NCBI GenBank assembly: GCA_001885315.1
Contig: MLPZ01000011.1
Coordinates: forward strand, 1 to 64,000
Direction of reading: 5' to 3'
DNA length: 64,000 nucleotides
From: Treponema sp. CETP13
Lineage (GTDB): Bacteria; Spirochaetota; Spirochaetia; Treponematales; Treponemataceae
The translations under genes were made by a program, and so were the position numbers. Below, in pieces: positions 281-63,940 of the stretch; the stretch's first letter is position 1; every line of letters begins with the position of its first letter. Below the pieces are notes generated by a model. The model searched no databases. It had not been told where the DNA came from and worked only from the letters and a program-made list of their open reading frames with translations.

Positions 281-623
281 GACCCGAAGGTCCAATGATT
301 TCTTTGGTTAGTTTGTCCCTTCAATTTTTATGTTAAAGGAACTCGCAACTCAATACTCTTATATAGTAGATACTATATCGTCATAATATTAAACTGCGAA
401 AATGTTAGCTTTTAAAAGCTAACCGGGTTGTGAATGATACATCATTCACTGTGTTCATTTATTCGTTTCGCTCGACTGATAAATCAGTCTTTCGAACCTG
501 TTTGCACTTTGTCAGAATTTTTTACCTAAGTAAAAAATTCCATTATCTTTCCTTCCCTATTTATTTTTCAAAGAACTTGAAGAAAAAAAACAAGTTTTTT
601 TCTCAACAAAAGCAAGCTTTTGT
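281..623 (-). other. 16S rRNA leader: array of short perfect dyads
   Basis: The transcribed spacer upstream of 16S holds a series of unrelated short perfect inverted repeats. In transcription order: 623-606 (8-bp arms, 2-nt loop), 540-515 (11-bp arms, 4-nt loop), 489-474 (7-bp arms), 449-430 (9-bp arms), 423-404 (10-bp arms, no spacer), 378-361 (8-bp arms) and 292-281 (GACC stem closed by a UUCG tetraloop, right before the 16S 5' end). No ORF here looks real. The role is inferred: folding or processing of pre-16S RNA, or protein-binding dyads in DNA. Confidence 0.8.
565..576 (-). promoter_or_regulatory. boxA antitermination element of the rRNA leader
   Basis: The minus strand reads GTTCTTTGAAAA, matching the core of the Bacillus-type rRNA boxA (TGTTCTTTGAAAAC as I recall it). 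BoxA RNA is bound by NusB and S10 (NusE) to protect untranslated rRNA transcripts from termination. It lies downstream of both candidate promoters and about 300 bases upstream of 16S. A related element lies in the tuf operon leader at 63903-63914. Confidence 0.72.
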
Positions 624-2890: not shown

Positions 2891-4381
2891 TTACCTATTA
2901 TAAGAAGAGTCGATATTTAACTTCCCCCTATACTTAGATACTGTACGTCGAGCAACTTTTATCCCTTTACGTGCTAATATATCCGAAATCTTTTGATCAG
3001 AAAGAGTTTTCGTAGCACCACTTCTCTCATGCTTTTCAATTATATTTTTTATTTCATACAATACAGAATCACGAGAAACAATTGCCGTTGCCTTTTCTCT
3101 CGAATCAACCTTTTGTATTGAATAGGTAGAGTCAGCAATCTCAGACAAAGCAGTCCCCAATTTATGCTTCTTGGTTGTTTGTATTGCACCTGTAAAAAGT
3201 GATTTGAGTTCTATTAACCCCCACTCACATTGCACATATTTATCATTTGAGATTCTAGAAACAGTAGATTCATCTACTTTACACTTTTCTGCAATATCAG
3301 CCATTCTAAGAGGATGTAGATGCCCTGGACCTTTTTTAAAATACTCACTTTGATAATACACTAAAGTTGTAATGATTTTATGTAACGCTTGTTTTCGTTG
3401 TTCAAGAGCTTCAATAAAAATATTTGCTTTATTGACAAATTCTGATGCGAATTTTTTTCTTTGAACTTCGGATTCAGTTTTTGCTCGAGGAGCTTTTAAC
3501 AAATCTTCATACAATGAGGAAACTTCAATTTCAGGTAAGTTTCCATGTAAAAAATCTATAATTAAAGAAGCTTCCCCCACCTCTTCTGCATTTTGCAATT
3601 TTATAATAGCTTCTGGTTCAATATACCGATTTATAGCATTAGTTGTCACAGAATAAGAAGAAGAGGGATACGGATGTAACGTTCGAATAAATTCTTTAAC
3701 TCTTTCTATTTCTGCAAGGGTACAATCAACTCCATCTTTAGAAAGTATTTTATAAATAGTTGAAGGCCTCTTTGGAATTAAAGAAAAATAATCTGATAAT
3801 ATGACAAAAACTAATGGAGGGACCACCTCTTCTGATTCAGAAGCAAACTGTTCTTCTAATTTTATCTTAGATTGTTCTAAAAGCGTTTGTTGGAGATCTT
3901 TACATGCAGTTCCTGGAGGGTCTAAACGTCGAACAATATATAACATCTTTTCCATAAGTGTAAAATCATCATCGACATTTAAAAGCGTTTCTGGATCCTC
4001 TACATTGTACCCATGGCCATCAATATTATGAATAATTTGATATCCAACTCGATATTCATTTTCATCAAGTTTCAATAAATCAAGTTGCGATTGTAGATGA
4101 GTTTGCAATGTTTCTTCTGGGACAGGAACACTTTCTAAAAAAGATTGATATTCATCACTGCGAGTAGCACTACCATAATGTTGACTCATTTTTATCGATG
4201 AAGGCTCGATAGTGGCATGCCTTGTTATTTCTAAGGCTGGATTTTTTTCTACTTCTTCATAAATACGTTTTGTAAGAGCATCAGAGGGCAACGACATTAG
4301 ATTTGCAGACAAAATTATCTGAGGAGACAACTTCATTTGCTGTTTCATTGATTGTGATTGCACAAAACCCATTTCGGGCAT
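2891..4381 (-). CDS. rpoN: RNA polymerase sigma-54 factor
   Basis: This 496-residue protein has the three sigma-54 regions: a glutamine-rich region I near the N-terminus (QSQSMKQQMKLSPQ), an acidic middle and core-binding part, and a C-terminal RpoN box ARRTVSKYRGKLNI that reads the -24 element. The start is set by AGGAGG six bases upstream of the ATG at 4381; an earlier in-frame ATG at 4405 lies before that site and is rejected. It directs activator-dependent transcription. Possible partners in the window are the activator at 32604-33731 and the PtsN-like IIA at 16094-16540. I saw no clear GG-N10-GC sigma-54 promoter in the intergenic regions read. Confidence 0.95.
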   Translation of the reverse strand: MPEMGFVQSQSMKQQMKLSPQIILSANLMSLPSDALTKRIYEEVEKNPALEITRHATIEPSSIKMSQHYGSATRSDEYQSFLESVPVPEETLQTHLQSQLDLLKLDENEYRVGYQIIHNIDGHGYNVEDPETLLNVDDDFTLMEKMLYIVRRLDPPGTACKDLQQTLLEQSKIKLEEQFASESEEVVPPLVFVILSDYFSLIPKRPSTIYKILSKDGVDCTLAEIERVKEFIRTLHPYPSSSYSVTTNAINRYIEPEAIIKLQNAEEVGEASLIIDFLHGNLPEIEVSSLYEDLLKAPRAKTESEVQRKKFASEFVNKANIFIEALEQRKQALHKIITTLVYYQSEYFKKGPGHLHPLRMADIAEKCKVDESTVSRISNDKYVQCEWGLIELKSLFTGAIQTTKKHKLGTALSEIADSTYSIQKVDSREKATAIVSRDSVLYEIKNIIEKHERSGATKTLSDQKISDILARKGIKVARRTVSKYRGKLNIDSSYNR

Positions 4382-61922: not shown

Positions 61923-62231
61923 TTATTGTTTAATCTCAACATCTACGCCAGCAGGCAATTCAAGCTTCATCAGTGAATCCATAACATCAGCTGACGGCTC
62001 AATAATATCAATAAGGCGTTTATGTGTACGCATTTCAAACTGCTCACGTGATTTTTTATTAACGTGAGGTGAACGCAATACAGTCACCTTTTCAATTCTT
62101 GTAGGAAGAGGTATAGGTCCTAAAACCTTAGCACCTGCTTTCTGCACTGTCTGCACGATGGCTTTAGCACTCTGATCGATCAACTCTACGTCAAACGCAC
62201 GAAGTCTGACACGAATCTTTTCAGTAGCCAT
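61923..62231 (-). CDS. rpsJ: 30S ribosomal protein S10 (NusE)
   Basis: A 102-residue protein: [64 protein letters not shown] precedes the ATG at 62231; the longer frame to 62285 is rejected because its first residues are encoded by the leader. Besides its ribosomal role, S10 pairs with NusB to bind boxA RNA. The tuf-rpsJ leader itself holds a boxA-like element. Confidence 0.98.
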
Positions 62232-62297
62232 TTTTCCTCCAAAGGAAACAAAGCGGGTTTTCGCAAAGCGCAAACCCGCTCTCATTCTTAATCTAAT

Positions 62298-63488
62298 TTA
62301 TTCGATAACTTCGGTAACCTGACCAGAAGCAATTGTTCGTCCACCCTCTCGGATAGCAAGTTTTAATCCCTGCTCCATAGCTACAGGGTGAATTAATTCT
62401 CCGATGATTTTTGTGTTATCACCAGGCTTAACCATATCTACTCCCTCAGGAAGTTCTACAGTACCTGTAATATCTGTAGTTCTAAAATAAAACTGTGGTC
62501 GATATCCAGTAAAGAATGGACTATGTCGTCCACCTTCATCTTTAGACAATACATAAACCTGCGCAGTAAATTTTGTATGAGGAGTAATTGTTCCTGGATG
62601 AGCCAAAACTTGACCACGAACAACGTCTTTTTTCTCAATACCACGTAGAAGAACACCTACATTATCACCAGCTTCTCCTTGTTCCAATGTTTTTTGGAAC
62701 ATTTCAATACCAGTAACAACAGTTTTTTGAGTTGGTTCAATACCAATAATCTCAACTTCTTCAGACATTTTAACAACACCACGTTCAACACGACCTGTTA
62801 CAACCGTACCACGTCCTGAAATTGTGAAAACATCTTCGATAGGCATTAAGAATGGTTTATCAAGATCACGAACAGGATCATCAAAATAATTATCCATAGT
62901 GTCAAGAAGTTCATCAATACAAGCAGTATCTTCTGAAGAAGCTCCTTCTTGAAGTGCTTTAAAAGCAGAACCTTTAACTATTGGAGTTGCGTCACGATCA
63001 TATCCATATTCTTCAAGAACATCACGTACTTCTTCTTCAACAAGCTCAACAAGTTCTTCATCATCTACTAAATCAATTTTGTTTAAGAAAACGATAACTT
63101 TCTTAACACCAACCTGATTTGCAAGAAGTAAGTGTTCTCTAGTCTGAGGCATTACAGAATCAGGTGCTGAAACTACAAGTATAGCTCCATCCATTTGTGC
63201 TGCACCAGTAATCATGTTTTTAACATAGTCAGCATGACCAGGACAGTCAATATGAGCGTAATGACGCTTAGCTGTCTGATATTCAAGATGACGTGTGTTA
63301 ATTGTAATACCACGTTCTTTTTCTTCAGGAGCGCTATCAATTTCATCATACTTCAGCAATTTATCGCCGAATGCTTTTGCACAGTGTGCTGTGATAGCCG
63401 CTGAAAGAGTTGTTTTACCATGGTCAACGTGACCAATAGTACCAACGTTCATGTGCGGTTTTGTTCTTACGAACTTTTCCTTTGCCAT
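62298..63488 (-). CDS. tuf: elongation factor Tu
   Basis: A 396-residue GTPase that delivers aminoacyl-tRNA. GHVDHGKTT (G1), the [12 protein letters not shown] switch [13 protein letters not shown] (G3) and [11 protein letters not shown] (G4) are all present. The C-terminal domains have the usual [13 protein letters not shown] and [13 protein letters not shown]. It is the first gene of the long ribosomal operon; rpsL, rpsG and fusA, which often precede tuf, are absent. AGGAGG supports the start. Confidence 0.98.
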
Positions 63489-63940
63489 TTGATCCTCCTT
63501 ACCAGATTAAAGGCATACATAAAAAGTTTAATGTGTTTATACTCAAGAATAGCCCCGCCTTCACGAGACAGAACATTCAGTACACACTTTAAAGTGCAAT
63601 AATTGATATGATTAGATATAAGGAAAAGGCAGAAAACAGAACGTTTTCTTTTCGGCTGCACATCTTATTCGTACAGTTTTGGCCGGTTCCACCTATCACC
63701 ATCAACTCTGCATTGATGACTGGTTTGGCATCCCGGAGTCATGAGATTTATTTGTTAAATCTCAGTCAAGAATCCTAAAATGCTACCAATCAATTAAAAA
63801 CGTTAACAACGTTTTTATTACATTCCAGGATTGTAAAAACCTAACAATACGCATGCATTGTTTTTACGGTTTTACCAGTTAATCAGTTCATTAACCCCTT
63901 GACTCTCAAAGAACCCTGAAAAAAACTTCTTTCCAGTGAT
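63489..63940 (-). other. long structured leader of the tuf-ribosomal operon
   Basis: About 450 transcribed bases precede tuf and contain no credible gene. In transcription order there is a boxA-like element and a run of perfect dyads: 63895-63878 (6-bp arms), 63867-63833 (8-bp arms), 63817-63795 (10-bp arms, 3-nt loop), 63764-63742 (9-bp arms, 5-nt loop), 63718-63700 (6-bp arms) and 63596-63585 (12-base palindrome). The layout parallels the 16S leader. Confidence 0.7.
63903..63914 (-). promoter_or_regulatory. boxA-like element in the tuf operon leader
   Basis: The minus strand reads GTTCTTTGAGAG, which shares GTTCTTTGA with the rRNA boxA at 565-576 in this window. It would lie about 25 bases from the predicted transcript start. 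It is a candidate NusB-NusE binding site in an operon that encodes NusE (S10). Confidence 0.6.

Follow-up and report, generated by a model that had tools for sequence, protein, structure and literature searches.

The established role of NusB and S10 acting together on boxA is loading onto RNA polymerase, with resistance to Rho (reviewed in PMC10931766). Autoregulation of NusE (S10) by means of boxA was predicted in gamma-proteobacteria by Baniulyte et al. in 2017, with a predicted boxA before rpsJ in three genera and two more genera in which rpsJ lies further downstream in the operon (PMC5725501). As an idea, NusE autoregulation through boxA is thus already known (PMC5725501). Within the literature that we examined, the chromosomal boxA elements of mRNA leaders that come with experimental tests are those of suhB and of one Citrobacter koseri gene. 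Among our own sequences, a gamma-proteobacterial locus (L017, from an Ignatzschineria MAG) carries GCTCTTTAAAA, a boxA of the E. coli type, 26 nt before tuf, which is where Baniulyte et al. place such elements.

The window analyzed here is a 64,000-nucleotide stretch of DNA from Treponema sp. CETP13 (contig MLPZ01000011.1), the minus strand of which carries an operon in the order tuf-rpsJ-rplC, followed by further genes. An earlier sequence-only reading of this DNA proposed that the operon leader contains a boxA-like element about 25 bases from the predicted transcription start, that this element matches the boxA of the 16S rRNA leader in the same window over nine bases, and that rpsJ is the second gene. 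On direct reading, the sequence, coordinates and strand given for GTTCTTTGAGAG are right, rpsJ does follow tuf, and the element lies ~24 nt downstream of a start that is expected near 63938 on the basis of the putative promoter (Table 1). That promoter is absent from the list produced by a stricter consensus scan. The rpsG side, directly upstream of it, ends in a terminator-like repeat, GACTCCTTTTGGAGTCTTTTTTT (about 4000-4020 in locus L001), and the tuf leader therefore seems to open a separate transcription unit. This tuf is the sole full copy in its genome; a tuf search of a collection of genome contigs gave matches from distant phyla only. The strong hairpin in the tuf-rpsJ spacer, which has only a weak T run, could be an attenuator, a processing site or a stabilizer.

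Table 1. Features of the tuf-rpsJ locus and of the 16S rRNA leader in the window, listed in the direction of transcription
Feature	Positions	Strand	Remarks
Predicted sigma-70-type promoter TTGCAC-17-TATAAA	63946..63974	minus	sequence read by eye; TTGCAC 63974-63969, 17 nt, TATAAA 63951-63946
5' hairpin directly before boxA (boxB-like position)	63916..63936	minus	predicted
boxA-like element GTTCTTTGAGAG	63903..63914	minus	9-mer GTTCTTTGA at 63914-63906
P1a 5' strand GAGAGTC	63901..63907	minus	overlaps 3' part of boxA
P1 5' strand AGTCAAG	63898..63904	minus	overlaps last two bases of the 12-mer
P1 3' strand CTTGACT	63764..63770	minus	7 pairs
P1a 3' strand GACTCCG	63734..63740	minus	directly before core hairpin
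Core hairpin (CC-AA-ACC-AGU..GAUG-GUGAUA-GGU-GG), model R1	63680..63736	minus	
Putative hairpin CTGTAC-GAATAAGAT-GTGCAG after core	63656..63676	minus	place conserved, stem varied in relatives
Putative 3' stem of leader (GTGTGTA..ATAAACACA)	63532..63587	minus	from alignments
Shine-Dalgarno AGGAGG of tuf	63494..63499	minus	from sequence
tuf (EF-Tu), first operon gene	62298..63488	minus	
Strong hairpin, tuf-rpsJ spacer	62250..62282	minus	sequence varied, in most relatives sampled
rpsJ (S10 / NusE), second gene	61923..62231	minus	
16S rRNA leader boxA AAGTTCTTTGAAAA / GTTCTTTGAAAA, internal reference	565..576	minus	hairpin at 604-579, AGGGAAGG at 558-551

The nine bases common to the tuf-leader and 16S-leader elements of this genome are GTTCTTTGA, identical at every position. 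For the full 12-mer the sequence-only reading was correct in part: the nine bases are found in rRNA boxA, and the terminal GAGAG, which could supply the 5' strand for a long-range helix within the leader, is not. The single 9-mer match by itself is at chance level. Six boxA sites with at most two mismatches occur in the window against 7.3 expected, and the exact 9-mer has 23 copies in the genome compared with 37 for a reversed control word; three of the 23 copies belong to rRNA leaders, with AGGGAAGG after each of them. Predicted openness of the tuf boxA in a nascent window is 0.39, compared with 0.44 for the rest of the leader.

The significance of the element comes instead from its conservation at one position. 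Of 91 distinct tuf leaders from the family, searched between -540 and -310 relative to the tuf start codon, 59 have exact GTTCTTTGA in the same place. For comparison, 200 permuted 9-mers averaged 0.27 in the same 91 leaders, with 9 as the highest count. The conservation among related tuf leaders that the sequence-only reading had put forward as a check is thereby confirmed, as is its placing of a boxA-like element in the leader of the S10 operon. Thirteen genera have the exact word or a close form of it, including the variants GTTCTTTAA, GGTCTTTGA, GATCTTTGA and ATTCTTTAA, and the distance from boxA to the tuf start codon ranges from 340 to 490 nt among leaders. In several genomes of a second family of the order, GTTCTTTGA, GGTCTTTGAAA or GATCTTTGAAA precedes the same core RNA (described below); there, boxA is found in leaders with their own extended 5' region, and several leaders in which the core stands close after rpsG have none. 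A clear boxA was also not found in genus g6, in most of genus g15 or in the reduced 1.14-Mb genome G019, despite the presence of NusB and the leader core. Loss of boxA through loss of NusB was considered and rejected, as NusB is present in all checked genomes that are at least 90% complete, G019 included. Outside the spirochetes, 68 tuf leaders yielded two boxA-like sites, which is about the chance level. Judged by this pattern of sequence conservation, the tuf-leader element appears to be a genuine boxA maintained by selection.

Its surroundings resemble those of the rRNA sites. In most of 70 leaders the tuf boxA follows, at a distance of 0-7 nt, a predicted hairpin that is varied in sequence, with a mean z of -1.92 as opposed to -0.43 in control windows, and the rRNA boxA elements of the same genomes mostly follow a hairpin too. 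The rRNA leaders of the family (604-551 in the window, L319, L324 and L216-L245) present a hairpin, a boxA variant and then AGGGAAGG within ~20 nt; the 16S covariance search of the genome under study missed a truncated copy. As at the rrn 16S leader site, with its boxB, boxA and boxC, the tuf leader thus places a hairpin and boxA near the promoter of a long, untranslated and structured transcript. It differs from the rrn site in leading into an mRNA, in lacking the boxC-like AGGGAAGG, and in a boxA sequence that does not track that of the rRNA. The rRNA boxA differs between genera (GTTCTTTGA, GATATTTGA, GGTCTTTGA, GCTGTTTGA), whereas the tuf element mostly stays GTTCTTTGA where the rRNA boxA varies and is the stricter of the two; in some relatives only TTTGA plus flanks are common to both. 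The idea that the two elements co-vary was accordingly rejected. By sequence, place and conservation the tuf element is boxA-like, but it does not reproduce the rRNA signal in full.

The earlier reading did not notice that boxA forms the 5' module of a large RNA that is both conserved and structured. This leader is ~440 nt long, untranslated, conserved in parts, and folds much better than shuffled sequences (z of -5.75 for the whole leader). The core hairpin has the consensus CC-RA-ACC-RRU-YRUC..GAUGRUGAUA-GGU-GG, in which eight of 15 pairs are changed on both sides among relatives. With a covariance model of this core, R1, a single copy is detected in each of 46 of the 48 same-family genomes sampled; two further families of the class have weaker copies, also before tuf, and the core is retained even in G019. 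Of three still weaker matches in the phylum, the two that we examined do not lie before tuf and were put down to chance. Core hairpin loci other than that of the window are L278, L279, L280 and L281, and the first three of these, from the distant family f13, have a second conserved word, GACCTCTGGA, downstream of the core. The window leader has no Rfam match at the gathering score, or indeed up to E 10, and the leaders of seven relatives have none up to E 0.05; the tuf leader RNA is likewise unmentioned in the open-access literature on ribosomal leaders that we examined. The possibility that the core mimics rRNA was dismissed after a search for conserved leader words in four rRNA operons of relatives gave no convincing match.

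Two helices adjoin boxA. In P1, AGTCARG directly after boxA pairs with CTTGACT ~130 nt downstream, and four of the seven pairs show double changes. In P1a, GAGAGTC, which overlaps boxA at its 3' edge, is able to base-pair with segments resembling GGCTCTT directly before the core, a pairing that in the genome under study is limited to GAGTC with GACTC. The strands of both helices were placed by hand, since the first automatic search for a P1 partner was too loose alone, and were evaluated by comparing pairing energies of own and swapped strands. None of 2,000 permutations was as good as P1. The covariation score of P1a exceeds those of all 500 shuffles, and its swap test is borderline (p 0.05). 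Because AGTC is common to both helices, P1 and P1a must either compete or form a junction. Conversely, no co-varying partner was found for GTTCTTT, including when the 9-mer was tested against segments before the core, as expected of a protein-binding site.

We regard it as an even bet that the tuf boxA acts in antitermination, with NusB-S10 loading there so that polymerase stays processive through the untranslated leader. Under this proposal, a loading site of the rRNA type, a hairpin and then boxA, would open the tuf-S10 leader; NusB bound to S10 would recognize boxA as the RNA emerges and would associate with RNA polymerase; and the polymerase would then cross the ~400-nt untranslated and structured leader without transcription being stopped by Rho. 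It might also pass the hairpin in the tuf-rpsJ spacer as a possible second target. Expression of tuf and the S10 operon would in this way be tied to the machinery of rRNA synthesis and to the same pool of free NusB-S10, while the core RNA downstream could provide a second, separate control by some ligand. This genome encodes NusB, which is present in 73 of the 74 genomes searched, and Rho is encoded in all 13 genomes searched. An antitermination role fits best because boxA is promoter-proximal and stands before 400 nt of untranslated RNA, in an arrangement like that of rRNA leaders and with a preceding hairpin, a feature that most rRNA sites in these genomes also have. Arguing against such a role are the missing AGGGAAGG, the independent variation of the tuf and rRNA elements, and the genera that have NusB and the core and no clear boxA. 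NusB-S10 binding, antitermination and the direction of any feedback are what we infer for this locus.

The main rival of antitermination is repression of tuf-S10, in which excess S10-NusB on boxA would block tuf translation or promote Rho termination by way of a polymerase-bound loop. Repression has precedents in a boxA upstream of genes for Nus factors, as with E. coli suhB, and in nutL of phage lambda, which with lambda N works ~200 nt from its gene (PMC5725501), and the products of classical ribosomal-protein operons repress those operons. We nonetheless think it unlikely, given that 340-490 nt and many helices separate boxA from the start codon and that a hairpin followed by boxA close to the promoter is reminiscent of rRNA sites. 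The two proposals matter for experiment in that, with a long untranslated leader behind an rRNA-like hairpin and boxA, antitermination and repression predict opposite outcomes. A more elaborate scheme draws on the covariation seen in both P1 and P1a and on their common AGTC 3' of boxA: NusB-S10 would compete with P1a for the 3' part of boxA, and binding would select between P1 and P1a and thus set the state of the core. P1 and P1a could, however, coexist in a three-way junction, and with both helices placed by hand and P1a borderline in the swap test such a composite switch appears decidedly improbable. Also quite unlikely, if slightly easier to entertain, is an RNA of a new family with two inputs, in which boxA would read free S10 (with NusB) and the core a second ribosomal or translation factor, the two being coupled by mutually exclusive helices with the bases directly after boxA in common. 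If true, such an RNA would balance EF-Tu and the S10-spc-alpha cluster against the synthesis of rRNA in spirochetes.

Two further explanations question whether the element is a boxA at all. Its conservation could reflect a structural role in the leader or pairing with the tuf Shine-Dalgarno sequence, as might be suggested by the fold of lowest energy for the window leader, in which GGUUCUUU pairs with GGAGGAUC at the Shine-Dalgarno, and by the greater strictness of the element relative to rRNA boxA. The pairing was rejected, as it is seen in a single-sequence fold only and shows no coevolution: pairs of boxA and Shine-Dalgarno from the same genome reach -7.99 kcal/mol, no better than the -8.32 kcal/mol obtained when they are swapped between genera. 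With no co-varying partner for the 9-mer before the core, a hairpin-boxA pattern, and variants that match those of rRNA boxA, we are very doubtful that it serves some purpose other than that of a boxA. Chance resemblance, for which the number of copies of the 9-mer in the genome might be cited, is scarcely credible and for practical purposes is refuted by conservation at one position across genera as measured against permuted words.

Through this boxA, S10 may help control its own operon, and the leader RNA is itself a candidate site for regulation of the sole tuf gene identified in this genome. The spirochete boxA resembles those of suhB and of gamma-proteobacterial rpsJ in lying upstream of a Nus-factor gene or its operon (PMC5725501). 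It differs in that tuf comes first and a structured RNA intervenes. Moreover, the search for the gamma-proteobacterial elements was limited to 50 bp from the start codon, and the boxA of suhB adjoins the Shine-Dalgarno sequence (PMC5725501), unlike that of the tuf leader with its far greater distance. The S10 leader of E. coli, which is regulated by L4, is also a long structured leader of an S10 operon (reviewed in PMC10931766); the spirochete leader is distinguished from it by boxA, by tuf in first place and by the lack of an Rfam match. Structured RNAs occupy the 5' region of rpsJ in the rpsJ motif of Peptostreptococcaceae (PMC11109978) and, as far as it is mentioned in PMC7247131, in the Firmicutes S10 r-leader. 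Both belong to another phylum and stand before rpsJ rather than tuf. New with respect to the open-access literature searched are the occurrence in spirochetes, the ~400-nt distance, tuf as first gene, the rRNA-like hairpin and boxA, and the leader RNA. A deeply conserved boxA before tuf-rpsJ in another phylum constitutes a second case, independent of the gamma-proteobacterial one.
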